This document shows positions 3,614 through 28,067 of a stretch of DNA of 64,000 nt, piece after piece. The stretch is from Crocinitomicaceae bacterium. GTDB lineage: Bacteria; Bacteroidota; Bacteroidia; Flavobacteriales_D; Crocinitomicaceae. Where the stretch lies: positions 124,001-188,000 of the forward strand of contig JAJTCM010000001.1 of the NCBI GenBank assembly GCA_021325675.1, written 5' to 3'. The notes below the pieces were generated by a model. The model ran no database searches and had not been told where the DNA came from. It saw only the letters and a program-made list of their open reading frames with translations. Position 1 is the stretch's first letter; each line of letters starts with the position of its first letter. The translations under genes were made by a program, and so were the position numbers.

Positions 3614-5209
3614 CTATTTCACCTTGATGTAAAAATCCGGGTCAACTTCAGGATGCTGTTTTTTGGTCCATCCCGGAAATTTTTTCCAGTCGCTTGTTGG
3701 TTCGATCCAGCTTCCGTCTTTCAGCTTTACTTTCATATCGAAGCCAGGTACAACTGAGCTCCAGCGGTATTTCGTTTTTCCTTTTTTACCTTTGAATTCC
3801 AGCACGGGAATGTCTTTGGAACGCAGGTACTGGTCAAAAACCTTGTCGAGCTTCAGGCCGCTGAATTTACTCATGAAAGTTTCTATTTCGGCGCTTGTAA
3901 CGGTTTTGTGGTAAAATTCCCTGTTCATTTCGCGGAGCATGCTGCGAAAGCGCTTGTCATCATTCATCAGCTGGCGGACAAGGTGCACGAGATTTCCGCC
4001 TTTATAGTACATATCTCCGCTGCCTTCGTTGCGTACGCCGTAATGCCCGATGATCGGAATGTCATTTTCGATGTTTTTCCGGATGCCTGCCACATAAGCC
4101 GTCGCGGCGTCTTTGCCATAGTAATATTCCGTGAAAAGCGTTTCTGAATAATTGGTAAAAGATTCATGGATCCACATATCGGCCACATCTTTCGACGTGA
4201 TATTGTTGCCATACCATTCGTGGCCGCTTTCATGTATGATAATGAAATCCCATTTCAAGCCCCAGCCGGATTCACTGAGGTCCTTGCCGGAATAGCCGTT
4301 CTGAAAACCGTTCCCGTAGGCGATCCCGCTTTGGTGCTCCATGCCTAAATACGGTGACTGCACAAGCTTGTAGCCGTCTTCGTAGAAAGGGTAGGGGCCA
4401 AACCAGTATTCGAAGCATTTCAGCATGTCGTGGCTTTGCTTAAATTGCGTTTTGGCGCGCTCAAGCTCATAATCCAGCACCCAGTAGCTGCAGTCCAACG
4501 TGCCTTTTTCGCCCTGGTAGCTGTCCTTCCAGCCCACATAATACCCGATATAAGGAATAATATTGTAATTATTGATTGGGTTTACAATTTTCCAGCTTAC
4601 GCGTTTTTTACCATTAATTTCATCCTCGTAAAGCAGTTTTCCATTCGAAACCGCCTGTAGTTCCTTCGGAACGATCATTGTCAAAACCGAGCCGTTTTCC
4701 GGTTCATCGCCCTGGTAATCTTTGCAGGGATACCAAATGCTGGCGCCAATTCCCTGGCAGGCAACTGACATCCACGGGCGTCCTTTTTCGTCTTTCGACC
4801 ACACCCAGCCGCCGTCCCATGGGGCTTTTACTGCTTCGCGGGGTTTGCCGGAAAAATAAACGAGAATACTGGATTCCTGTTCTTTAAACAATTTCTGTTC
4901 GATATTCACCCACAAAATACCGCCGTCGCGTTCATAGCTGAGCTTTTTGCCACGCATCAGGATAGAATCGATCTGTAAAGCTTTGTCGAGGTCGATCTGC
5001 ATTTTGCGCAGGCTCCCGGTCACCGTAAAGCTGATCGTGTTGGAGCCTTTGATGGTTTTGGTCGCATAATCCGGTTCAACCGTCAGGTCGTAATGGGTAA
5101 CGTTCCACCAGCTGCGTTCAGGCGTATCGGACCCAAGCAGGCTGTCCTGACGGTTAAAGCTCTGTGCAGCAAGTGCAAAGGGGAAAAACAGGCACAAAAA
5201 TGTTTTCAT
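3614..5209 (-). CDS. M1 family zinc metallopeptidase
   Basis: This 531-residue protein has a signal peptide (MKTFLCLFFPFALAAQS) and the full gluzincin site. HESGH lies at residues 326-330 and the third zinc ligand is E349 in WIHESFTNYSE, matching HExxH-x18-E. GMEHQSG at 289-295 corresponds to the GAMEN exopeptidase motif of M1 enzymes, although its sequence is altered. The C-terminal helical domain of classical aminopeptidase N is missing, as is common for short Bacteroidota M1 proteins. It is probably a periplasmic aminopeptidase used in peptide scavenging. The gene stands alone and is divergent from the UbiB-like gene. A good minus-7 box lies 24-31 bases upstream of the ATG. Confidence 0.92.
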   Translation of the reverse strand: MKTFLCLFFPFALAAQSFNRQDSLLGSDTPERSWWNVTHYDLTVEPDYATKTIKGSNTISFTVTGSLRKMQIDLDKALQIDSILMRGKKLSYERDGGILWVNIEQKLFKEQESSILVYFSGKPREAVKAPWDGGWVWSKDEKGRPWMSVACQGIGASIWYPCKDYQGDEPENGSVLTMIVPKELQAVSNGKLLYEDEINGKKRVSWKIVNPINNYNIIPYIGYYVGWKDSYQGEKGTLDCSYWVLDYELERAKTQFKQSHDMLKCFEYWFGPYPFYEDGYKLVQSPYLGMEHQSGIAYGNGFQNGYSGKDLSESGWGLKWDFIIIHESGHEWYGNNITSKDVADMWIHESFTNYSETLFTEYYYGKDAATAYVAGIRKNIENDIPIIGHYGVRNEGSGDMYYKGGNLVHLVRQLMNDDKRFRSMLREMNREFYHKTVTSAEIETFMSKFSGLKLDKVFDQYLRSKDIPVLEFKGKKGKTKYRWSSVVPGFDMKVKLKDGSWIEPTSDWKKFPGWTKKQHPEVDPDFYIKVK

Positions 5210-5232
5210 AAGGAGTAATTTATCGGCTCAGG

Positions 5233-5240
5233 CAAATGTA
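5233..5240 (-). promoter_or_regulatory. Minus-7 promoter box (TACATTTG) of the M1 peptidase gene
   Basis: Read on the minus strand this is a perfect match to the Bacteroidota TAnnTTTG box. The predicted leader is about 18 bases. Confidence 0.6.
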
Positions 5241-5363
5241 GCTAAAATGATGTAAAACGGTTTTCCGCTCATCCGTTTCCTCCTTTTTTTTGATAAAAAA
5301 AAACATTTTTTTTTGTAAACCTATTGTCTCATTTTGACTAATTTTAGCCTAAAGTAAATTAGC

Positions 5364-18198: not shown

Positions 18199-18232
18199 TG
18201 ACCAGCATCATGTATTCCTCTGACAGCTGTCA
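18199..18232 (+). promoter_or_regulatory. Tandem operators of the T9SS gene: TGACCAGCATCA and TGACAGCTGTCA
   Basis: The two palindromes occupy 18199-18210 and 18221-18232, with centres 22 bp apart. The proximal centre (18226.5) is 29.5 bp upstream of the minus-7 box at 18256. The same arrangement is found before the kinase gene and the candidate small RNA. Confidence 0.75.
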
Positions 18233-18255
18233 TTCGGCCTGGATTATAGACAGGG

Positions 18256-18263
18256 TACTTTTG
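18256..18263 (+). promoter_or_regulatory. Minus-7 box (TACTTTTG) of the T9SS gene
   Basis: Perfect TAnnTTTG. It predicts a start of transcription near 18268 and a leader of about 20 bases to the ATG at 18290. The operator centre is then near minus 41, the class II activator position. Confidence 0.7.
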
Positions 18264-18289: not shown

Positions 18290-21200
18290 ATGGAAACAGG
18301 AAACACACAAAAAGCAAAATCACCGGCCCTAAACGGACCATGTATGGATTCCTTTTCTAATGTGAAGCAAAACGTATTCAAACCAACTACAAGTATGAAA
18401 ACCAGAATTTTAACCCAGGGGCTGAAACTAACTATTCTTGCCCTTCTCTTACCTTTATGTAAGGTAAGCGCACAAAACATCAGTCTGACAGAAACGCGTC
18501 CGGCAGGGATGACCGTATGTATGGGGGATTATCCTTTTACACTCAAGATCCGGAACAATTCGGCTCAAACGGCAAGCAACTTCCGGGTGAAACTGGATTT
18601 GCCGGATTACATTTACTATACGGGTAACCTGGCCAATGCGGGCGAGTTCAACGTATCAAACCTGAATGAGCCGGTATTTACCCTTCCGAATATTGCAGGA
18701 TACGATTCTTTGGTGATTTCTTACACCGCTGAAGCTTCCTGCGGGATTATAGCTTCATTAAGCAATGACCTGACCGTTCAGAACAAATATACCTGCACCT
18801 ATACAATGGGGGGAAACAACAATACCTTAGGCCCGGTTCCGGCACAATCGTATAACCTGCTGTTTGCAAACCTTTCTATGGTAGTGACCAACCCGATCAA
18901 TACAGTGCTTCAGTACGGTGACCGCATCAACGAAAACAGCGCTGAGTTCCGTTCCGTTCAGCTTTTGAACAGCGGAAACGGCTCATTGGATACCGTTGTT
19001 ATCCGTATCCGTCCGGAAGGAGAAATTGTTTACAACCGTTTTGTTTCCGAAGCTCATCCGGCAATCGCTTTTCCTTATACAACTGAAGGAAGCGATTTAC
19101 TGATCACCCTCAGCGGCCAGGCTTTGCAAAACGCTATCCTCCAGGGAGACGCCGACAACCTTTTTGATCCGGGAGAAAGCATCAGCCTGATCGAAGATTT
19201 TACCGTAGTGAGCTGTACAGGACTGAACACTTTATATAAAGTAGAGTGGGGGTGCTACCAGGAGGCCTGTAATACCAATTCAGGAAATGCCACAATCAAT
19301 TCCAACATCAGCGTTCACAGCGGAAATGCCCAGTTTGACCTATTCGTAGGCGATGTTACCGGCTTGCTGGATTACTGCGAAGATGACCGTGAAATGGAAT
19401 TTTATTTTGTCAACACAGGAAGCCAGAACGGCGATTTTGCCCGTGACCTGAAAGTGGATTTGCTTGCTTATGAAGAGCAGGAAATTTATATTCTTCCGGC
19501 GAGCTTCGAATTATATGATTACAAGGCAAACGGGTATGCAATCAGCAATTCACTTATCAGCGCCCACAGCACAATTAACTGGTATTTCCCAAGAAACTCA
19601 ACAATTACACCGGGTTACAAGCTTGATTTCAGTGCGAATACTGCTCCTGGCTTGCTCGAAGACCTCGATGGCGATGGTTTTTATGATGACCTCGCAGCCG
19701 GCGATACACTCAGGCTTACAGTGAAAATCCGCTTTACAGACTATACTGAGCTCCAGGGCGAATGTCCGCTCGATATTCTTCAGAATTACGGAATGCCGCA
19801 AATTTCCTGGCTGACAAGCTGCGGGGAGCTGCGCACGTCAATCGATGGAAACACATTTTACCAGAACCGCTATTATGTTTACAATTACCCGGATGACCAA
19901 AGCATGGTGGATTTAATCACTGAGCCGGTTGACTTTATTGAAGCAAGCCCTGAAATCTTTCGTTTTTGCACAGGATCCTGGTATTACAACTGGAATTTGA
20001 TGGATTGCGAAGAAAATGCTTACCAGGGAGTTATCAGCCTGCCTGCAGGTTTTCACCTCAATAACACGGAAGCAATGTGGTATTCAGCGGCTGGTGACAG
20101 CATGGTGGTGAGCGCCCAGGAAATCGGGAACACAGTTGTTGTGGACGGGATCGGAAAAAGTCTTTTACAGCCGGAAAACTGGACAGGCTGTTTCAACGTG
20201 GAGCTTGTATTGATTTGCCCGGAAGACGGCCTTCAAAGTCCGGCACAGATCAGTTGGGAAATGCAGTACAAATGCAGCGACTGTGATGTGATCCAGCGCC
20301 GCGCCTGTGCAACTGAAGAAGTTTATGTTCACGTAAGCTCTTGCCCGGGCTCCAAAGACAACTGCCAGGGAATCTATTCCAGCAGCTTTGAAATGAAGCG
20401 CACAACTTTGGGCTGGACGGATGCTACACGTCAGCAGCATGTAAATATGACGCAGGAAGGCCTTCGCCTGAATGCAGCTTATGCCTATGATAAAGTTGAA
20501 AGCTATACTTCCGGTCTTGTGATCGGCGAAAATATGGAGCAAGTTTTCGTGGATGTGATTTATACGGCCCCAAACCAGCTGTTCAGTTTTGAAAGCGGAC
20601 GTTTCGAGATTTACAGGGACGGACAATTGGCCGGAAGCTGTGCTGCAAACGCGCCTGCTTTACTCGTGATCGATAATAATTATACAAACCGTTTTCAAAT
20701 GCCTTGCCATTCCTTGTTATTACCTGGTGACAGCGTTGTGCTCGTGGCAGCCTGGATGGTTGAAAACAGCCTTTTGATTACTAAAACACGCGAATACGAA
20801 ATTCCGGAGCTGCGCTCACGTTACATGTCACTCCGAAACGATACGCTGTCCGCTTGTGATAGCTGGGGTGCGCGTTTCACACTTTTCAGCAATAAAACTT
20901 TCCCTGTAGCTACTGTTGGTACTGCATCCGGCTGTTCTAACCTGACGGTTAACCTGGCCTGGATCAACCTCGGCGGAAGCAAAGGAAACGATTTCCCGCA
21001 CGAATTCAGAAACCTTGGAAAACTTGATAACGAAGTAATTTTCTCAATTCCTGCCGGATACAGCTATGTGGATGGAAGCGCCAGGATGTTCGCTTATACT
21101 CCAAATGAGACAGGAATTTCACCCCGCTTTTTTACCGATAATACCACTTTGATCACACCTGCAGTCAGCTCGGATGGCTTGAGCCTGATCTTTAATGAAA

Positions 21201-23761
21201 ACTGGCCTTTGGTTGATAAAGCAGGTAACTACAACGTGAGCTATACTACGCCGCCGTTGCTGAGCTTTGAAATCCGCCCTGACTGTGACCACGAGGATAC
21301 TGTTTTTGCTCTGATGGATTTCAGCTACAAAAATTACCAATACCTCGAAGATCCGGCTATGCACCAGCAAATCGGCTGGGAAGATACCTGGCATGATGAC
21401 GGAAACAACCCGGCAGCAAATATGCGCTGGTACCATTATTTGCCAAACCTGCAGGTGACCCAACCGGGATTGACAACCGTTGACGCTTACACCAATACGG
21501 TGAGCTGGGACTTAAAAGTTTGTAACCGCCCGGATGCGCAGCACAATGTAATTGCTTCAGCAGGAAGTGTGTGGCTGGATATCGACGAGCCTGTTACAAA
21601 CAGCGGAAATATCCTGATCAATTCTGTTTTTGACCTGGAAAACAATACTAATTTTAATGTAAGTGATTACAATAACGGGGCAGGGGCTTTCGTAGAAATC
21701 GGTGAGATCAGCGCTAATGCATGCCGCACTTACCGTATCAATGCAAGCTATACGAATTGCGCGGAAGATGAGCTGGACTCACTGCGCATTCTTACCGGCT
21801 GGGCATGCGGCGCTTATCCTGAAGCAGAAACGGCAGAAACTGCTTCCTGCCAGGTTGACACGAGCTTCTTCATTATCCGTTATAAGACTTCAAACCTGCA
21901 AATGTCTGTTGCTGAGCCTTTGGGAATCTACGAAATGTGTGATACATTAAACTACCAGGTTACCTTAACGAGCTCTGAGCCGGCAAACCTGTATGATATT
22001 AAGCTGTGGGGCAACCTGCCGGATGGCGCGCATATCATAAATGCTTTTTACCAGTATCCTGAAGATAACACAAGCTGGATCAATCTGGATCTTAGTGCAT
22101 CAGCTGATTTCAGCGGCTACAATCCGCACGGATGGGACCTTTCAGGGATTGTTCCTGAGTTTTTAAATGGTTTTCCGGGCAGCAGAACGCCGGGTCAAAA
22201 TGAAATCCGGGTGCGCTTTGAAGTCGTAATGGACTGCATGTACCATCCTGGCCAGGAATTCGTGATCTTTGCACGCGGAACAACAAACTGCAATGATTCA
22301 CTTGCCCTGAATGCACATTACACGCTTCCGCTTAACCTTTCTGAAACACCGGTGATTTACCGTCTTTCGCACAACATCAAAGATACCATGAACTGCGAAA
22401 ACCCGAATACAATTACTTATACGGTTAAAAATACGGAGAACAGGCCGAATACTGCCGGTGACAGCTTACGCATCGAAATCCCTGCAGGCTTTTACTTCGT
22501 TACCGGAAGCGGATTGCCATCCCAGCCTTTTGTTTCAGGAAACACCTTATACTGGGCCCTGGGATCAATGGGCGCTTATAATTCCAAAACGTTCAGCTTC
22601 CGCATTGAGGCCGATAATTTTACAGGCTGCAATGAGCTTCTCATTCCGGTTGAAATTATCAGGACAGCAAGCGGTTCAACCTGCGGTATGTCTTGTAACC
22701 CTACAGGCGATTCAGGAAAAGACACGCTGCACCTCGTTTACTGCTGCGGTAACAACGTTAACAACGGCGGGTGTGAAATTGATGCCAGCTTCAGAAATGT
22801 AATTTCCTGCGCAGGAAGCCCGATGTGCCCGGTTGTGGCAAACCCGGAGCTTAGCATTGAATATGCGAATACCTGGGATTTTGGTGACGGAAGCTCTTCC
22901 ACAGATGCTGAGCCATGCCATGTTTACACAAACCCTGGTACTTATACGGTGACCCATATTGTAAGAAACCTTTACGGCTGTATTGATACGGTGACCAGAA
23001 CGGTAAAGATCGTTCCTGCACCAACTATCAGGTTATCAGGCAACAGCTATATCTGCGATGGCAGCAGCCGCCTGCTCAGGGCTGAGACGTCAAGCTCCTG
23101 CCAATGGTCATTGAACGGAAACATCCTTGCAACAGCATCAGAAGTGAATGTCAGCGCAGCCGGAACATACGTCATGGTAACTACAGCTCCAAATGGCTGT
23201 ACGGTTACAGACAGTGTTGTGGTGGCAAGCCGCGTAGTAGACCCTGTCGTAACTTCTTCAGCGGTAAGCATGTGCGTAGGCTACAATGTTGTCCTGAGCG
23301 CAAGCTGTGATCCTTCTTTTTACTATCAGTGGCAGAAATTTGTGGCTGGCAACTGGGTAAACCTCACGGGAACGGATTGTTCAATTACAACACCTGTTTA
23401 CAAAGCAGGACAAAATATGTACCGTGTAATCGTGCGTGACCAGCTGAGCGGATGTGAGAGCATCAAAACAGTTTCCGTACAAGGAACTACACAAAACTGC
23501 AAGCAGGTAACAGTGAGCCCGAACCCAACGGAAAAACTACAGTCTGCTATCCACTATTCCTTTGATCCGGCGGAATATAACGCCGCTTACCTGGAAATTT
23601 ATGACATGAAAGGTGAAATCATCAGCACGCAGACGGTTGACCTCAACCAGGAAAAGGCTGAGCTTGATTTCAACGGAAGAGCTGAAGGGATCTACCTGGT
23701 GCGTTTGTTTGTAGACGGACAGGAAGTTGCTACCGAGAAAATAATGGTGTTAAACCGTTAA
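18290..23761 (+). CDS. Giant cysteine-rich T9SS-secreted surface protein with PKD domain
   Basis: This 1823-residue protein carries a signal peptide whose hydrophobic core follows a second Met (MKTRILTQGLKLTILALLLPLCKVSAQ, start 18395). Starting at 18290 gives a 35-residue hydrophilic extension. Most of the protein is a string of cysteine-containing, beta-rich, DUF11-like modules. One PKD domain lies near residues 1500-1580 (WDFGDGSS, then CHVYTNPGTYTVTHIV), followed by an Ig-like unit. The last 80 residues form a type A T9SS sorting domain (VSPNPTE through GIYLVRLFVDGQEVATEKI). It is probably exported across the outer membrane and cell-surface attached, as an adhesin. Its promoter carries the FNR-like operator pair and a terminator follows at 23809. 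Confidence 0.88.
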   Translation: METGNTQKAKSPALNGPCMDSFSNVKQNVFKPTTSMKTRILTQGLKLTILALLLPLCKVSAQNISLTETRPAGMTVCMGDYPFTLKIRNNSAQTASNFRVKLDLPDYIYYTGNLANAGEFNVSNLNEPVFTLPNIAGYDSLVISYTAEASCGIIASLSNDLTVQNKYTCTYTMGGNNNTLGPVPAQSYNLLFANLSMVVTNPINTVLQYGDRINENSAEFRSVQLLNSGNGSLDTVVIRIRPEGEIVYNRFVSEAHPAIAFPYTTEGSDLLITLSGQALQNAILQGDADNLFDPGESISLIEDFTVVSCTGLNTLYKVEWGCYQEACNTNSGNATINSNISVHSGNAQFDLFVGDVTGLLDYCEDDREMEFYFVNTGSQNGDFARDLKVDLLAYEEQEIYILPASFELYDYKANGYAISNSLISAHSTINWYFPRNSTITPGYKLDFSANTAPGLLEDLDGDGFYDDLAAGDTLRLTVKIRFTDYTELQGECPLDILQNYGMPQISWLTSCGELRTSIDGNTFYQNRYYVYNYPDDQSMVDLITEPVDFIEASPEIFRFCTGSWYYNWNLMDCEENAYQGVISLPAGFHLNNTEAMWYSAAGDSMVVSAQEIGNTVVVDGIGKSLLQPENWTGCFNVELVLICPEDGLQSPAQISWEMQYKCSDCDVIQRRACATEEVYVHVSSCPGSKDNCQGIYSSSFEMKRTTLGWTDATRQQHVNMTQEGLRLNAAYAYDKVESYTSGLVIGENMEQVFVDVIYTAPNQLFSFESGRFEIYRDGQLAGSCAANAPALLVIDNNYTNRFQMPCHSLLLPGDSVVLVAAWMVENSLLITKTREYEIPELRSRYMSLRNDTLSACDSWGARFTLFSNKTFPVATVGTASGCSNLTVNLAWINLGGSKGNDFPHEFRNLGKLDNEVIFSIPAGYSYVDGSARMFAYTPNETGISPRFFTDNTTLITPAVSSDGLSLIFNENWPLVDKAGNYNVSYTTPPLLSFEIRPDCDHEDTVFALMDFSYKNYQYLEDPAMHQQIGWEDTWHDDGNNPAANMRWYHYLPNLQVTQPGLTTVDAYTNTVSWDLKVCNRPDAQHNVIASAGSVWLDIDEPVTNSGNILINSVFDLENNTNFNVSDYNNGAGAFVEIGEISANACRTYRINASYTNCAEDELDSLRILTGWACGAYPEAETAETASCQVDTSFFIIRYKTSNLQMSVAEPLGIYEMCDTLNYQVTLTSSEPANLYDIKLWGNLPDGAHIINAFYQYPEDNTSWINLDLSASADFSGYNPHGWDLSGIVPEFLNGFPGSRTPGQNEIRVRFEVVMDCMYHPGQEFVIFARGTTNCNDSLALNAHYTLPLNLSETPVIYRLSHNIKDTMNCENPNTITYTVKNTENRPNTAGDSLRIEIPAGFYFVTGSGLPSQPFVSGNTLYWALGSMGAYNSKTFSFRIEADNFTGCNELLIPVEIIRTASGSTCGMSCNPTGDSGKDTLHLVYCCGNNVNNGGCEIDASFRNVISCAGSPMCPVVANPELSIEYANTWDFGDGSSSTDAEPCHVYTNPGTYTVTHIVRNLYGCIDTVTRTVKIVPAPTIRLSGNSYICDGSSRLLRAETSSSCQWSLNGNILATASEVNVSAAGTYVMVTTAPNGCTVTDSVVVASRVVDPVVTSSAVSMCVGYNVVLSASCDPSFYYQWQKFVAGNWVNLTGTDCSITTPVYKAGQNMYRVIVRDQLSGCESIKTVSVQGTTQNCKQVTVSPNPTEKLQSAIHYSFDPAEYNAAYLEIYDMKGEIISTQTVDLNQEKAELDFNGRAEGIYLVRLFVDGQEVATEKIMVLNR

Positions 23762-23918: not shown

Positions 23919-23952
23919 TGACCTTCATCAGGACCGGATATGACTTTCGTCA
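23919..23952 (+). promoter_or_regulatory. Tandem operators of the kinase-regulator operon: TGACCTTCATCA and TGACTTTCGTCA
   Basis: The sites occupy 23919-23930 and 23941-23952, with centres 22 bp apart. The proximal centre is 29.5 bp upstream of the minus-7 box at 23976. The arrangement predicts autoregulation by the encoded Crp/Fnr-type response regulator. Confidence 0.75.
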
Positions 23953-23975: not shown

Positions 23976-23983
23976 TATTTTTA
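23976..23983 (+). promoter_or_regulatory. Minus-7 box (TATTTTTA) of the kinase-regulator operon
   Basis: This matches TAnnTTTG with one deviation at the last base. The predicted transcript starts near 23988, about 23 bases before the ATG. Confidence 0.6.
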
Positions 23984-24010: not shown

Positions 24011-25219
24011 ATGAACAAGCTTAACGGAGAAAATATCGAAAGTAAACAAGGAATGGATGCCTTGTTTCTTTTTGCTACTGAGGCTATCCTGGTTGCCAAC
24101 GGAAATGGTGACATAGTACGAATTAATCCAAGTGCCGAGCGTTTGTTCGGTTATGAAAAAGACGAGCTGAAAGGCCAAAAAATCGAGGCCCTGATCCCCG
24201 GACGTTTTTCTGCTCATCAGCAGCACCGTGAAAAGTATGTCGAAAATCCGCATCCCCGTGCTATGGGGGCAGATATAGATCTCTACGCGCTCCGGAAAGA
24301 TGGAACAGAATTCCCGGTGGAAATCAGCCTTAGCCCTTATATGGTTCAAGGACAGAAATTTGTTGTTGCTTTTATCGTTGACATCACTACCCGCAAAGAA
24401 GAGGAGGAAAAAATCAAAACCTATTCCGATGACCTGGAGAAGCAGGTGAAAAGCCGCACACTGATCCTGGAGGAAGCAATCGGTGAGCTGGAAAGGACCC
24501 GCAAGGAATTGAAAATCGCGCTGAATAAGGAAAAAGAGCTGAATGAGCTTAAAAGCCGCTTTGTTTCAATTGCTTCGCATGAATTCAGGACACCGCTCAC
24601 AACGATGCTTTCGTCTTTGTCGCTGATTACCAAATACGGTGAGCAGAACGATTCGGAAAACCAGATGAGACATGTCAACAAGATTAAAACTTCCATCAAT
24701 CACCTCACCGATATCCTGAATGATTTTCTTTCTGTCAGCAAGCTGGAGGAAGGCAAGGTCGAAAATATGCCTGAAACTGTTAACTTGGAGAATTTCCTGG
24801 CAGATATGCTTTCCGAAATGCAGGTTATGAAGGATGAGAACCACACTCTTGTCCAGGTGTATGAAGGTAACCCGCTCGTATCCATAGACAAAAAACTGCT
24901 TCGTCACATGGTGCTGAACCTGCTGACCAATGCGATCAAATTTTCACCGGAAGGCGGTAAAATTGAAGTAAATGCCAAAGTGACGGCAAGCGAAATCAGG
25001 ATCGCCATTAAAGATGAAGGTATCGGAATAGCCCCTGAAGCACAAAAGAATTTATTTGAGCGTTTTTTCCGCGCCGACAATGCGATGCATATCCAGGGAA
25101 CAGGCCTGGGACTGAATATTGTTGCCAAATACGCGGAATTAATGCACGGCACTATAGAACTGGAAAGTGAAGAAAACAAAGGAACAACTTTTATAATCAT
25201 AATCCCGCAAGCAAAATGA
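24011..25219 (+). CDS. PAS-domain sensor histidine kinase (FixL-like PAS)
   Basis: This 402-residue soluble kinase has no membrane segment. The N-terminal PAS domain (about 15-130) contains LIPGRFSAHQQHREKY, in which His69 aligns with the haem-ligating His of FixL (H-x-x-Y/H-x-x-R/K-Y), followed by RKDGTEFPVEISLSPY. A coiled linker (130-185) leads to the HisKA domain with phospho-acceptor His200 (ASHEFRTP), then an HATPase with N box NAIKFSPEGG, G1 DEGIGIAPE and G2 GTGLGLNI. The stop overlaps the next ATG by 4 bases, so it is translationally coupled to its response regulator. Haem binding is an inference; many related PAS domains carry similar residues without proven haem. Confidence 0.9.
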   Translation: MNKLNGENIESKQGMDALFLFATEAILVANGNGDIVRINPSAERLFGYEKDELKGQKIEALIPGRFSAHQQHREKYVENPHPRAMGADIDLYALRKDGTEFPVEISLSPYMVQGQKFVVAFIVDITTRKEEEEKIKTYSDDLEKQVKSRTLILEEAIGELERTRKELKIALNKEKELNELKSRFVSIASHEFRTPLTTMLSSLSLITKYGEQNDSENQMRHVNKIKTSINHLTDILNDFLSVSKLEEGKVENMPETVNLENFLADMLSEMQVMKDENHTLVQVYEGNPLVSIDKKLLRHMVLNLLTNAIKFSPEGGKIEVNAKVTASEIRIAIKDEGIGIAPEAQKNLFERFFRADNAMHIQGTGLGLNIVAKYAELMHGTIELESEENKGTTFIIIIPQAK

Positions 25220-26271
25220 AGAAAATACTTTTGATTGAAGACAATCCGGACGTTCGTGAAAATACAGCTGAAATTTTGGAATTGGCTCAGTACAAGGTTG
25301 TAACCGCCGTAAACGGTAAAGAAGGCGTAGAAGTTGCCCAGAAAGAAAAGCCGGACCTTATTATTTGTGACATCATGATGCCTGTGCTCGACGGTCACGG
25401 GGCGCTCCACATGTTATCAAAAAATGATGAAACAGCCAGCATTCCCTTTATTTTCCTGACCGCAAAATCCGAACGCTCAGATTACCGCCGGGGAATGGAA
25501 ATGGGTGCCGATGACTACCTCACCAAGCCTTTTGACGATATTGAATTGTTGAATGCCGTTGAAGTAAGGCTACGCAAAAATGAAATCCTCAAAAAGGAGT
25601 TTACGAAAGGTATCGCCGGGATCAACGAATTTATAAACGAAGCGAAAGGCATCGACTCGCTCAAAAAGCTCTCCGAAGCCCGCGATGCCCGTATTTATAA
25701 GAAGAAAGACGAAATTTACAAAGAAGGCGCCTTCCCGAAAGGAATTTATTTTGTCAATAAAGGCCGTGTAAAAACGTATCAAACAAGCGAATCAGGCAAG
25801 GAATTAATCACCGATTTGCATAAAGAAGGCGATTTTTTCGGCTACCTTTCCCTGCTGAAAGATGAGCCATACACCAGCTCCGCCACTGCGCTCGAAGATG
25901 CTGAAGTATACATGATCCCAAAAGACGACTTTTTCGCTTTGATTTACAAAAATGCCGAAGTGTCCCGGAAATTTATTGAGCTGCTTTCCAACAATCTGAG
26001 TGAAAACCAGACACAATTAGTAAAGCTCGCTTACAATTCCGTTCGGAAAAGACTAGCTGAAGCGCTGGTTAAGCTTTCTGACAAGTATAAAGACGGCGAA
26101 GCAGCGTTCAGCATGAATATTTCCCGCGAAGATCTCGCCAACATGGTGGGAACGGCCACTGAAACAGTTATCCGTACGCTGAGCGATTTCAAAGACGATA
26201 AATACATTGAGATCAGCGGGGGAACGATCACGATCCTCGATTATGAGAAACTTTCCCGCATGAAGAACTAA
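25216..26271 (+). CDS. Response regulator fused to a Crp/Fnr-type DNA-binding module
   Basis: This 351-residue protein joins a REC domain (1-120; phospho-acceptor Asp52 in CDIMMPVLDG, Lys104 in YLTKPFD) to a cyclic-nucleotide-binding-like barrel (about 150-265) and a Crp-type winged helix (about 290-345). The recognition helix TATETVIRTL keeps Glu316 and Arg320, the Glu-x-x-x-Arg pair that reads TGA half-sites in Crp and Fnr. No Fe-S cysteine cluster is present, so the signal should come from phosphorylation by the upstream kinase. It is the best candidate to bind the TGAC-N4-(A/G)TCA palindromes found at four promoters here. A strong terminator follows at 26357. Confidence 0.92.
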   Translation: MKKILLIEDNPDVRENTAEILELAQYKVVTAVNGKEGVEVAQKEKPDLIICDIMMPVLDGHGALHMLSKNDETASIPFIFLTAKSERSDYRRGMEMGADDYLTKPFDDIELLNAVEVRLRKNEILKKEFTKGIAGINEFINEAKGIDSLKKLSEARDARIYKKKDEIYKEGAFPKGIYFVNKGRVKTYQTSESGKELITDLHKEGDFFGYLSLLKDEPYTSSATALEDAEVYMIPKDDFFALIYKNAEVSRKFIELLSNNLSENQTQLVKLAYNSVRKRLAEALVKLSDKYKDGEAAFSMNISREDLANMVGTATETVIRTLSDFKDDKYIEISGGTITILDYEKLSRMKN

Positions 26272-26356: not shown

Positions 26357-26385
26357 AAATTCCAACATCGTTGGAATTTTTTTTT
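26357..26385 (+). terminator. Rho-independent terminator of the kinase-regulator operon
   Basis: AAATTCCAAC and GTTGGAATTT form a perfect 10-bp stem with a 3-base loop, followed by a T tract. Confidence 0.9.
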
Positions 26386-26594: not shown

Positions 26595-26624
26595 AAGCCC
26601 CGTTTTTCTAAGAGCGGGTTTTTT
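26595..26624 (+). terminator. Terminator-like hairpin immediately upstream of the small-RNA promoter
   Basis: AAGCCCCG can pair with GCGGGTTT (one G-U pair and one mismatch), followed by TTTTT. It would insulate the next promoter from readthrough. Confidence 0.5.
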
Positions 26625-26626
26625 AT

Positions 26627-26660
26627 TGACGAAGGTCATGCCCGTTTCTGACCGCGATCA
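26627..26660 (+). promoter_or_regulatory. Tandem operators of the candidate small RNA: TGACGAAGGTCA and TGACCGCGATCA
   Basis: The sites occupy 26627-26638 and 26649-26660, with centres 22 bp apart. The proximal centre is 29.5 bp upstream of the perfect minus-7 box at 26684. This is the same geometry as at the T9SS and kinase genes. Confidence 0.75.
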
Positions 26661-26683
26661 TTTCCGGCGGGGAGTAATGGACA

Positions 26684-26691
26684 TATCTTTG
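26684..26691 (+). promoter_or_regulatory. Minus-7 box (TATCTTTG) of the candidate small RNA
   Basis: A perfect TAnnTTTG with no coding gene downstream. Confidence 0.7.
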
Positions 26692-26695
26692 TATC

Positions 26696-26849
26696 ATAAA
26701 GGAAGAGAGAAATACTTTCCGGGAAATAGGAAAACAATCCTGGAAATTCAAAGATATTCAAGAGTTAGGTTTTTTCATAGTTAGTTATAGTTAGAGTGTA
26801 CGTTAGGTAAAGAAAAGGGACCAGGTGATAACCGGATCCCTTTTTTTTT
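26696..26849 (+). ncRNA. Candidate regulated small RNA, about 154 nt
   Basis: The predicted transcript runs from just after the minus-7 box to a T tract. It contains no ATG, and no ORF is visible. The middle carries four GTTAG words (26763-26806) that look single-stranded and could be a target-pairing region. The 3' end is a hairpin with T9 (26817-26849). It lies directly downstream of the kinase-regulator operon and is preceded by the same tandem operators. Existence is inferred from signals only. Confidence 0.6.
26817..26849. terminator. Terminator of the candidate small RNA
   Basis: GGGA pairs with TCCC and GGT with ACC inside, with two mismatches, followed by nine T. On the minus strand it is followed by TTTTCTTT, so it may also stop transcription coming from the 84-bp element B. 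Confidence 0.7.
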
Positions 26850-27191: not shown

Positions 27192-28067
27192 TCAGATTTC
27201 CTGCTTCAGGATTTCAATCGTTTTTCCTTTCCGCTTATTGTAAATAAAAAAATCATTGGACGGAGCTACGTAAACCCGGGCATCTTCTTCGCCGGCGAGT
27301 GCGTTTGTTAACTGTGTTTTCTTCTTCCCCTCAAGGTCCATGCGGTAAATGTGATAAAATCCTGTTTCCATCGAAGAAAAGTAAATCCATTTATCGTCCG
27401 GTGAAAACATCGGCCAGCCATCATACGTTGGTGGGGTTTGGCTCAGGTTGACAGGCAAAAAGCTATCGGTATCCATGAGAAATACATCGTCGCCGCTCAC
27501 ACCGTTGCGCAGGTAAACGATATGCTTCATATTATTGGAATAGCGGGCGCAGGTTTCATTGTCTTCCGTGTCAGTGATCCGCAATGTTTTACCACTTTGC
27601 AGGTCGTAACGGTAAATATCCAGCGATTCATTGCCGCGGGTAGAGTTGAACAAAATATACTTGCCGTCCGGGCTGAAATACGGGTGGATATCACGGGCCG
27701 GATCGCTGATTATCTGCCGGGTTTGACCGCTTTTAACATCGTAGAGGTAAATGTCTTCATCCCCGCTGCGGTCACTCACGAAAGCAACAAGATCGTTTTT
27801 TGGGTTCCAGTCCGGGAAATTGTTGTTGAACGTATCCGTAAACAACGCCCGGTGCTCCATCGTTTCCAGGTCGAGGATGCGCAGCTGCCATTTACCGCTT
27901 TCATTGCTTTGATACAGGATTTCTTTGCTGTTAGCCGAAAGCCTCGGATAAGCTGCTTCCTGCTGCTGAGACCGGTAAACCACAACAGGTGTTTTCAGAC
28001 CGGTTTTTTGTGCGCCGCAGGAAAACAGCACACAAACGAAAGCGGAAAAGAATAATGGATTTTTCAT
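27192..28067 (-). CDS. TolB-like PD40 beta-propeller lipoprotein
   Basis: This 291-residue protein begins with a lipoprotein signal (MKNPLFFSAFVCVLFSCG; lipobox FSC). It is made of PD40/WD40-like blades: YPRLSANSKEILYQS, FPDWNPKNDLVAFVSDRSGDEDIYLYD, HPYFSPDGKYILFNSTRGNESLDIYRYD and WPMFSPDDKWIYFSS. TolB-type propellers mediate protein contacts in the periplasm, and many in Bacteroidota are free-standing. It is the last gene of a three-gene minus-strand operon, 7 bases after the DUF885 gene. The partner and ligand are unknown. Confidence 0.88.
   Translation of the reverse strand: MKNPLFFSAFVCVLFSCGAQKTGLKTPVVVYRSQQQEAAYPRLSANSKEILYQSNESGKWQLRILDLETMEHRALFTDTFNNNFPDWNPKNDLVAFVSDRSGDEDIYLYDVKSGQTRQIISDPARDIHPYFSPDGKYILFNSTRGNESLDIYRYDLQSGKTLRITDTEDNETCARYSNNMKHIVYLRNGVSGDDVFLMDTDSFLPVNLSQTPPTYDGWPMFSPDDKWIYFSSMETGFYHIYRMDLEGKKKTQLTNALAGEEDARVYVAPSNDFFIYNKRKGKTIEILKQEI

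Follow-up and report, generated by a model that had tools for sequence, protein, structure and literature searches.

Just downstream of a gene pair for a histidine kinase and a response regulator, a stretch of about 154 nucleotides without a coding frame of note follows a promoter with tandem operators and ends in a terminator, which raises the question of whether it encodes a small RNA (sRNA), what controls that RNA and what the RNA acts on. The stretch (positions 26696–26849, forward strand) was analysed within a window of 64,000 nucleotides from a Crocinitomicaceae genome, the window being the whole stretch of DNA under analysis. What is understood of sRNA mechanisms in the Bacteroidota rests on few examples from Bacteroides, and the window RNA, from a distant relative, has a layout much like that of FopS, a recently described RNA family of gut Bacteroides. 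A real sRNA of a conserved kind at this position is very likely, in the absence of expression data, and its direct control by an FNR-like response regulator is likely, in the absence of binding data. The most plausible function of the RNA, inferred from sequence alone, is to block the start codons of mRNAs, many of them for exported proteins. The reading as a whole, in which a FopS-like, anti-start sRNA is placed under an FNR-like response regulator, is favored by a modest margin, with transcription, binding and targets all inferred.

The RNA locus and its promoter

The 3' end of the putative sRNA is taken from an intrinsic terminator (26813–26849), whose nine T occupy 26841–26849 and are followed by G. 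The 5' end at 26696 is inferred by analogy with FopS genes, in which the Rfam FopS model begins five bases after TAnnTTTG. A -7 box of the Bacteroidota type, TATCTTTG, is read directly at 26684–26691, and the -33 position holds TTTC (26661–26664) where TTTG is expected; a weak -33 element would be compatible with an activated promoter. Two operators precede the box, the distal site TGACGAAGGTCA at 26627–26638 and the proximal site TGACCGCGATCA at 26649–26660, the latter 23 bp before the -7 box. Both fit the palindrome TGAC-N4-RTCA and lie 22 bp apart. Counted from the inferred start at 26696, their centres fall at -63.5 and at -41.5, the class II activator position, and with that start the criterion for an FNR-like class II promoter (an operator centre near -41.5 before a -7 box) is met. 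The promoter and its operators are thus shown by the sequence, and their use is inferred.

Promoters activated by FNR- and FixK-type proteins have a palindrome near TTGAC-N4-GTCA centred at -41.5. The sRNA promoter is alike in both palindrome and position, and the DNA-binding half of the neighboring response regulator is nearest Fnr and FixK among the Crp-type NCBIfam models, though below their cut-offs. In contrast to FNR and FixK promoters, the regulator here is fused to a receiver domain, the sites are tandem and 22 bp apart, and the -7 box is that of the Bacteroidota.

Two terminator-like hairpins, at 26357–26379 and 26599–26618 (forward strand), separate the regulator gene from the promoter of the sRNA, and the gene 3' of the sRNA (27192–28067) is on the opposite strand. 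There is no ATG and no TTG in 26697–26849, and the two GTG present both lead to very short frames; a peptide reading, which would have refuted the sRNA, was rejected for want of a frame. The word GTTAG occurs four times, at 26764, 26780, 26790 and 26802. When both strands were sampled in 154-nt stretches at steps of 10 nt (12,770 in all), only 11 had four occurrences, and all 11 overlap the sRNA locus. Among 200 dinucleotide shuffles of 26697–26849, 197 fold less well than the sequence itself (z = -2.2). The predicted fold includes a 5' hairpin at 26718–26744, which rests on fold prediction only, and pairs the U-run of the seed described below with a 5' GAGAAA, so that the accessibility of the seed may be under regulation too.

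An earlier note, made without database searches, had described a candidate sRNA directly controlled by the two-component system on the basis of the -7 box, the tandem operators, the lack of ATG, four GTTAG words and a hairpin followed by nine T, and each of these held when the sequence was read directly. Its claim of a small RNA is supported by related RNA modules with terminators in related genomes, without transcript data. The claims on control and on the seed are taken up where the evidence is given.

Tandem operators and candidate regulators

The kinase gene (24011–25219, forward strand) encodes a PAS-containing histidine kinase, and the response regulator gene (25216–26271, forward strand) encodes a receiver (REC) domain, a cNMP-binding domain and a Crp-type helix-turn-helix with the recognition helix GTATETVIR. 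The promoter of this operon (HK-RR) has tandem operators at 23919–23930 and 23941–23952 before a -7 box, TATTTTT, at 23976–23982 on the forward strand. The pair is 22 bp apart and 23 bp before the box, exactly as at the sRNA. A pattern of two sites 22 bp apart, 22–24 bp before TANNTTT, was searched in 240 genomes of the family and found at 33 places in 25 genomes, five of them in the own genome; read backwards, the pattern gave none. Single sites with the same spacing are far less specific (4 against 2 backwards in the own genome). In the own genome they are not clearly above the backward control (3 vs 2; 4 vs 2), and they are present in 192 of the 240 genomes, including genomes whose best match is a CRP-like protein without a receiver. 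In 8 of the 17 closest loci (L009–L025), own included, the kinase gene is preceded by a class II site whose gap is exactly 23.

All five tandem promoters of the own genome lie within 42 kb (C1:109048–150690) of a genome of 3.57 Mb, and they precede the sRNA, the HK-RR operon and three open frames with an exported look. One is in the window, with operators at 18199–18210 and 18221–18232 and TACTTTTG at 18256–18263 on the forward strand, before the gene (18290–23761, forward strand) for a 1823-aa exported protein with a type IX secretion sorting domain; this protein is probably a member of the same regulon as the sRNA, an inference from its promoter sequence. Another (L327) precedes a 310-aa protein that also has a type IX secretion sorting domain, and the third (L335) precedes a short frame with a signal-like start, judged by eye, behind the 310-aa protein. 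As a side observation, the tandem FNR-type operators before exported-protein genes (window 18199–18263; G000:C1:109048–110231) give the appearance of a regulon island round the two-component system.

Across the family, 7 of the 33 tandem places, own included, lead to HK-RR operons, as assigned by N-terminal sequence and place, with one assigned by Pfam. The six in relatives are L311, L314, L315, L317 (the one also identified by Pfam), L318 and L333. Six places lead to Usp proteins (L306, L320, L321, L322, L328 and L332, all by Pfam), and three, own included, lead to sRNAs of the same kind. In L328 (G049, same genus), the tandem promoter directly downstream of the response regulator gene drives a Usp gene and not an sRNA. 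Tandem operators also stand before small cysteine-rich proteins in L324, which has a DUF326 match, and in L325, judged by eye.

The other two sRNA places are in G016 and G036, genomes of another genus (g16), where tandem promoters without a 60-aa frame lead to a short RNA with UUUCAUAAGUAGUAGUU, UUAGGU and a terminator. Model R2 of the RNA module, which holds no sequence from G016 or G036, was run on 30 tandem-operator loci (88,374 bases) and gave exactly two matches, in G016 (E = 3.5e-6) and G036 (E = 4.8e-7). The motif TTCATA is present in both of these RNAs, which had been found by operator alone. Both genomes carry the HK-RR pair, with the helix GTATESVIR vs GTATETVIR, on contigs other than that of the sRNA. 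No such operator promoter was seen in the HK-RR stretches of G016 and G036 that were examined.

These results support the claim of two-component control, in the absence of binding data: tandem operators at equal distance are found at the own HK-RR operon and at the HK-RR operons of six relatives, and in another genus two genomes with the pair have RNAs of this kind behind tandem promoters. The position just downstream of the regulator operon, which the earlier note had likened to self-contained regulator-sRNA loci, is true here and is not conserved in relatives. The sRNA module was found at none of 31 loci around orthologues of the response regulator (with flanks of at most about 1.5 kb at the majority of them); consequently, adjacency of regulator and sRNA is seen only in the own genome, and the regulatory link in two more.

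The presumption that the HK-RR pair is the activator meets a rival in a second FNR-like protein of 228 aa, encoded at C1:509164, which could bind the same sites. According to this rival, the sRNA is real and has the same seed, and is activated by C1:509164 or by both proteins, with the HK-RR operon itself in the regulon of C1:509164. The recognition helix of C1:509164, GTATENLIR, is close to the GTATETVIR of the response regulator, and only these two proteins with a PF13545 helix-turn-helix pass the Pfam cut-off in the genome. Moreover, single operators stand directly before receiver-less CRP-like matches elsewhere, for example in G117:C6 and G123:C46 (by coordinates). Against this rival, the tandem form clusters round the HK-RR operon in the own genome and precedes HK-RR in six relatives, and the genomes with tandem-operator sRNA loci also possess the HK-RR pair. 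It remains possible, though less likely, that C1:509164 shares or owns the operator sites of the sRNA.

In the preferred reading, the PAS kinase would phosphorylate the REC-CRP response regulator, and the phosphorylated, FNR-like regulator would bind the palindromes at -63.5 and -41.5 and activate the sRNA promoter. The same regulator would bind the promoter of its own operon and those of several exported proteins. Both the dependence on phosphorylation and transcription itself are inferred.

A conserved RNA module and its copies

The conserved part of the window RNA (26770–26847, forward strand) consists of an anti-start seed beginning with UUUUCAUA, a UAG-rich stretch, UUAGGU and the terminator. 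A nucleotide search of the 240 family genomes with the window RNA gave mostly unrelated short matches, with 19 other genomes reached at E ≤ 0.01. A match in G118 (E = 1.7e-6) led to related RNAs in genus g17, where two or three were found per genome in five genomes, with terminators and their own TATCTTTG-like promoters (TAnnTTT type). Many of these multicopy sRNAs (L062–L066, L072–L079) have upstream repeats of the CTACGTAGAACTACTTAG type, and one adjoins fatty-acid desaturase-like genes, judged by eye. The upstream repeats of the g17 RNAs are different, and another, unidentified activator is therefore probable for them. Some matches were set aside. Those of genus g22 at query positions 113–155 (L042, L054, L055, L060) are coding gene starts on the other strand (MKTQLFK) and are target-like, and a match in G019 is a 3' UTR-like copy.

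A covariance model built from the g17 RNAs and the window RNA (R1) found a second copy in the own genome (C6:160369–160449; L110:1585–1652), which lies behind the sigma54-like TTTGGCACGCTATTTGAA. A sigma54-like match upstream is present at seven loci in seven genomes, and three other genomes from its genus (L108, L113, L114) share the arrangement of the second copy. The own genome has two R1 matches at E ≤ 1, a count for which only 19 of 1722 first-look candidates were scored. R1 matches 220 of the 240 genomes at E ≤ 1; these E-values are rough and AT-rich terminators score, so this figure was not used as a count. Among the best 24 R1 matches outside the known g17 copies and the own genome (L086–L109), TTCATA is present in 16 and absent from 8. 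Copies lie directly behind genes for Hsp20 (L046, L096) and ClpB (L107, L116), named by Pfam, and L096 and L116 are without TTCATA. In these four and in L101 (TonB_C, also named by Pfam), the gene is separated from its terminator by the module or by the UAG-rich half of it. Such copies suggest the possibility of sRNAs derived from 3' UTRs, some of them tied to heat shock.

For an independent test of the window RNA, 23 diverse copies were aligned and a profile (R3) was made from 22 of them, with the window RNA left out. The copies had been picked by a pattern that required TTCATA; the invariance of TTCATA in the resulting alignments A3 and A4 is for that reason not evidence. R3 finds the window RNA with 26.1 bits and E = 4.2e-7 in 64 kb, which meets the leave-out criterion for membership among RNAs of the UUUUCAUA/UAG-module kind and shows that the module is conserved. 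The only other R3 match at E ≤ 10 in 64 kb is at 5201–5288 (E = 0.005), on the antisense strand of an M1 peptidase gene at its start codon; it is weak, and shows that the profile responds to target-like sites as well. In its exact form, the pattern TTCATAAGTAGTAGN{0,26}TTAGGT was found in the own genome and in 1 of 394 other genomes of the phylum. As only one of those 394 genomes is from the own family, the exact form is rare outside the family, and its frequency inside the family is not addressed.

The evidence above also bears on the possibility that there is no functional sRNA. The locus would then be either an activated promoter left orphaned before a T-rich tail, or what remains of a lost gene start as read on its reverse strand. 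In favor of this, the minus strand of the locus reads as a typical gene start, ATGAAAAAACCTAACTCTTGA, with a short frame, the module is absent beside the response regulator orthologues, and the similarity of this copy to FopS is not significant by itself. Against it stand the E-value of the leave-out profile, the rightly placed terminator, the link of operator and sRNA in another genus and the multicopy relatives, which make this reading very unlikely.

Seed, predicted targets and comparison with known RNAs

The core of the seed, GTTTTTTCATAGTTAGTT (26769–26786, forward strand), is antisense to AACTAACTATGAAAAAAC, and GUUUUUUCAUAGUUAGUUAUAGUUAG is the reverse complement of CUAACUAUAACUAACUAUGAAAAAAC, which resembles a Bacteroidota start region. 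This antisense match to gene starts is shown, and pairing is inferred from it. The block TTTTTCATAG has a single occurrence in the window, both strands considered. When duplex energies of the seed were calculated for 49 long frames of the window, the best position was over the start codon (-20 to +15), with a mean of -10.7, and eight other positions gave -8.5 to -9.5; only 1 of 200 shuffled seeds was as good as the real one. The sequence TAACTATGAAAAAAC, with up to two mismatches, is present at 50 places in the genome, own site included, vs 18 for the sequence read backwards. Of the 49 places other than its own, 29 were examined, and in 22 of the 29 the ATG begins an open frame no shorter than 100 aa. 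These 22 frames have mostly signal-peptide-like starts, judged by eye, and one, RecA-like, may be an internal methionine. The strongest predicted duplexes are with L239 (an M16 peptidase, -34.5), L262 (no Pfam family), L240 (lipoprotein-like by eye) and L257 (an M43 peptidase); such predictions for individual targets are model output and are not to be trusted. The suggestion that the GTTAG words form the seed held only in part: the likely pairing region is wider, beginning with UUUUCAUA just before GTTAG.

A further rival holds that the sRNA does not pair with mRNAs and chiefly serves, by means of its UAG/GTTAG repeats, to capture an RRM protein as a decoy or landing pad. UAG-rich or UUAGG stretches do recur across the copies, including several of the eight model matches without TTCATA, and UAG-rich stretches are also found behind the Hsp20 and ClpB genes. 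The genome encodes two RRM_1 proteins, and in Bacteroides the RRM protein RbpB binds the 5' portion of FopS (PMC11697453). On the other hand, TTCATA is present in both RNAs found through operators, and the seed pairs best with start codons, which would be needless for a pure decoy. The decoy is consequently regarded as unlikely.

In the anti-start reading, which is preferred, the UUUUUUCAUAGUUAGUUAUAGUUAG stretch of the sRNA would pair with the start-codon region (CUAACUAUGAAAAAAC type) of target mRNAs, many of which start MKK and encode exported proteins or lipoproteins. Pairing would block initiation of translation, as FopS and GibS do in Bacteroides, and an RRM-domain RNA-binding protein may attend the sRNA. 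The net effect would be that one signal raises one set of exported proteins and damps others. Pairing, repression and the involvement of an RRM protein are all inferred. In enterobacteria, OmpR-MicF and sigmaE-RybB are cases of a regulator driving an sRNA that blocks the start regions of exported proteins; the proposed circuit has the same logic, with the difference that its targets are only predicted.

FopS (RF04319), a paralogous sRNA family of Bacteroides, has a seed antisense to start codons, UUUUUCAUAG, with which its members cover the start codons of SusC-type mRNAs, and is bound by RbpB (PMC11697453). The window RNA shares with it the start-codon-antisense seed, a UUAG-containing stretch, AAAGA, the terminator and a TAnnTTTG promoter, in a genome that also has RRM proteins. 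A 3' UTR-derived member is known in FopS, and 3' UTR-like copies are seen in the Crocinitomicaceae module family. In contrast, FopS RNAs are 65–70 nt long with the seed at the 5' end, whereas the window RNA is 154 nt long with the seed about 75 nt inside (from the inferred start) and has a promoter with tandem FNR-like operators. FopS is present in 12–15 copies per genome; in the own genome two copies were found among the few candidates scored, the second with a sigma54-like promoter.

The window RNA does not qualify as a formal member of FopS: with the Rfam model it reaches 16.0 of 56 bits, below the gathering score. GibS (RF04182; PMC7366714), which pairs with start regions in Bacteroides, is likewise below its gathering score (19.9 of 115 bits), so that the window RNA does not qualify as a GibS RNA either. 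GibS resembles the window RNA in its GUUUUUUCAUAGU seed (R1), its start-region pairing (only predicted for the window RNA) and its possession of a special promoter of its own, and differs in the type of that promoter (PM2). These are the two Bacteroidota families that stand out on the sRNA strand, aligned over seed and terminator. Unrelated families reach better E-values in the same scan (down to 0.021), mostly on the other strand, and the Rfam scan alone therefore proves nothing; matches other than FopS and GibS were taken as chance, being far below gathering and many of them on the other strand. For the second copy (L110), no family exceeds FopS in bit score (26.5 of 56 bits, at E = 0.018), with a slightly better E-value (0.013) for an unrelated leader.

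Direct comparison with the FopS R1 seed (GUGUUUUUCAURGUAUUAGAU) shows that the 10-base block TTTTTCATAG is identical in the window RNA and that the remainder has diverged. In local alignment to the 5' part of FopS, the window RNA scores 28, which 260 of 5000 shuffles match, compared with 39 for the second copy (0 of 5000) and 35 for a g17 copy (11 of 5000). To judge by these alignments, the family resembles FopS clearly and the window copy only weakly by itself. Among 80 FopS loci from Bacteroidales, model R2 matched 10, in each case at the FopS site, and gave no match in 70, and R3 matched 5 of the 19 such loci given to it. A 21-mer overlapping the best block of the models had been used to select these loci, and 80 of at least 118 stretches were used. 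The likeness to FopS may reflect either common descent or convergence on the sequence of start codons. That the window RNA works like FopS is the best reading, by analogy.

Another flavobacterial sRNA with secreted-protein targets is Rfp18 of Flavobacterium psychrophilum (PMC9723704), for which, in contrast, pairing is predicted via the third stem-loop and no start-codon seed is mentioned in the relevant sections. A search of one open-access library found no report of the window RNA or of an sRNA controlled by a REC-CRP regulator in the Bacteroidota. If the proposed reading is true, the conserved coupling of an anti-start-codon sRNA to a two-component regulator, in a branch other than Bacteroides, would form a simple circuit, FopS-like regulation may predate the Bacteroidaceae, and the silencing of exported-protein mRNAs in bacteria without Shine-Dalgarno sequences would be explained, as the start codon itself is covered. 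A bolder reading extends start-codon blocking to the phylum: RNAs that combine a UUUUCAUA seed with a UAG-rich tail on which a protein lands would be an architecture found throughout the Bacteroidota, of which FopS and GibS are one branch. In that case, the same output module would be wired to different sensors (the FNR-like two-component system, sigma54, heat-shock 3' UTRs and other activators) as an Hfq-free counterpart of the envelope-stress sRNAs. This bolder reading is less likely than not. The FopS seed of 21 bases, mostly with a promoter and a terminator, is present in at least 118 Bacteroidales stretches (L119–L236), and it extends beyond the Bacteroidaceae to Prevotellaceae, Muribaculaceae, Dysgonomonas, Porphyromonas and Odoribacter.
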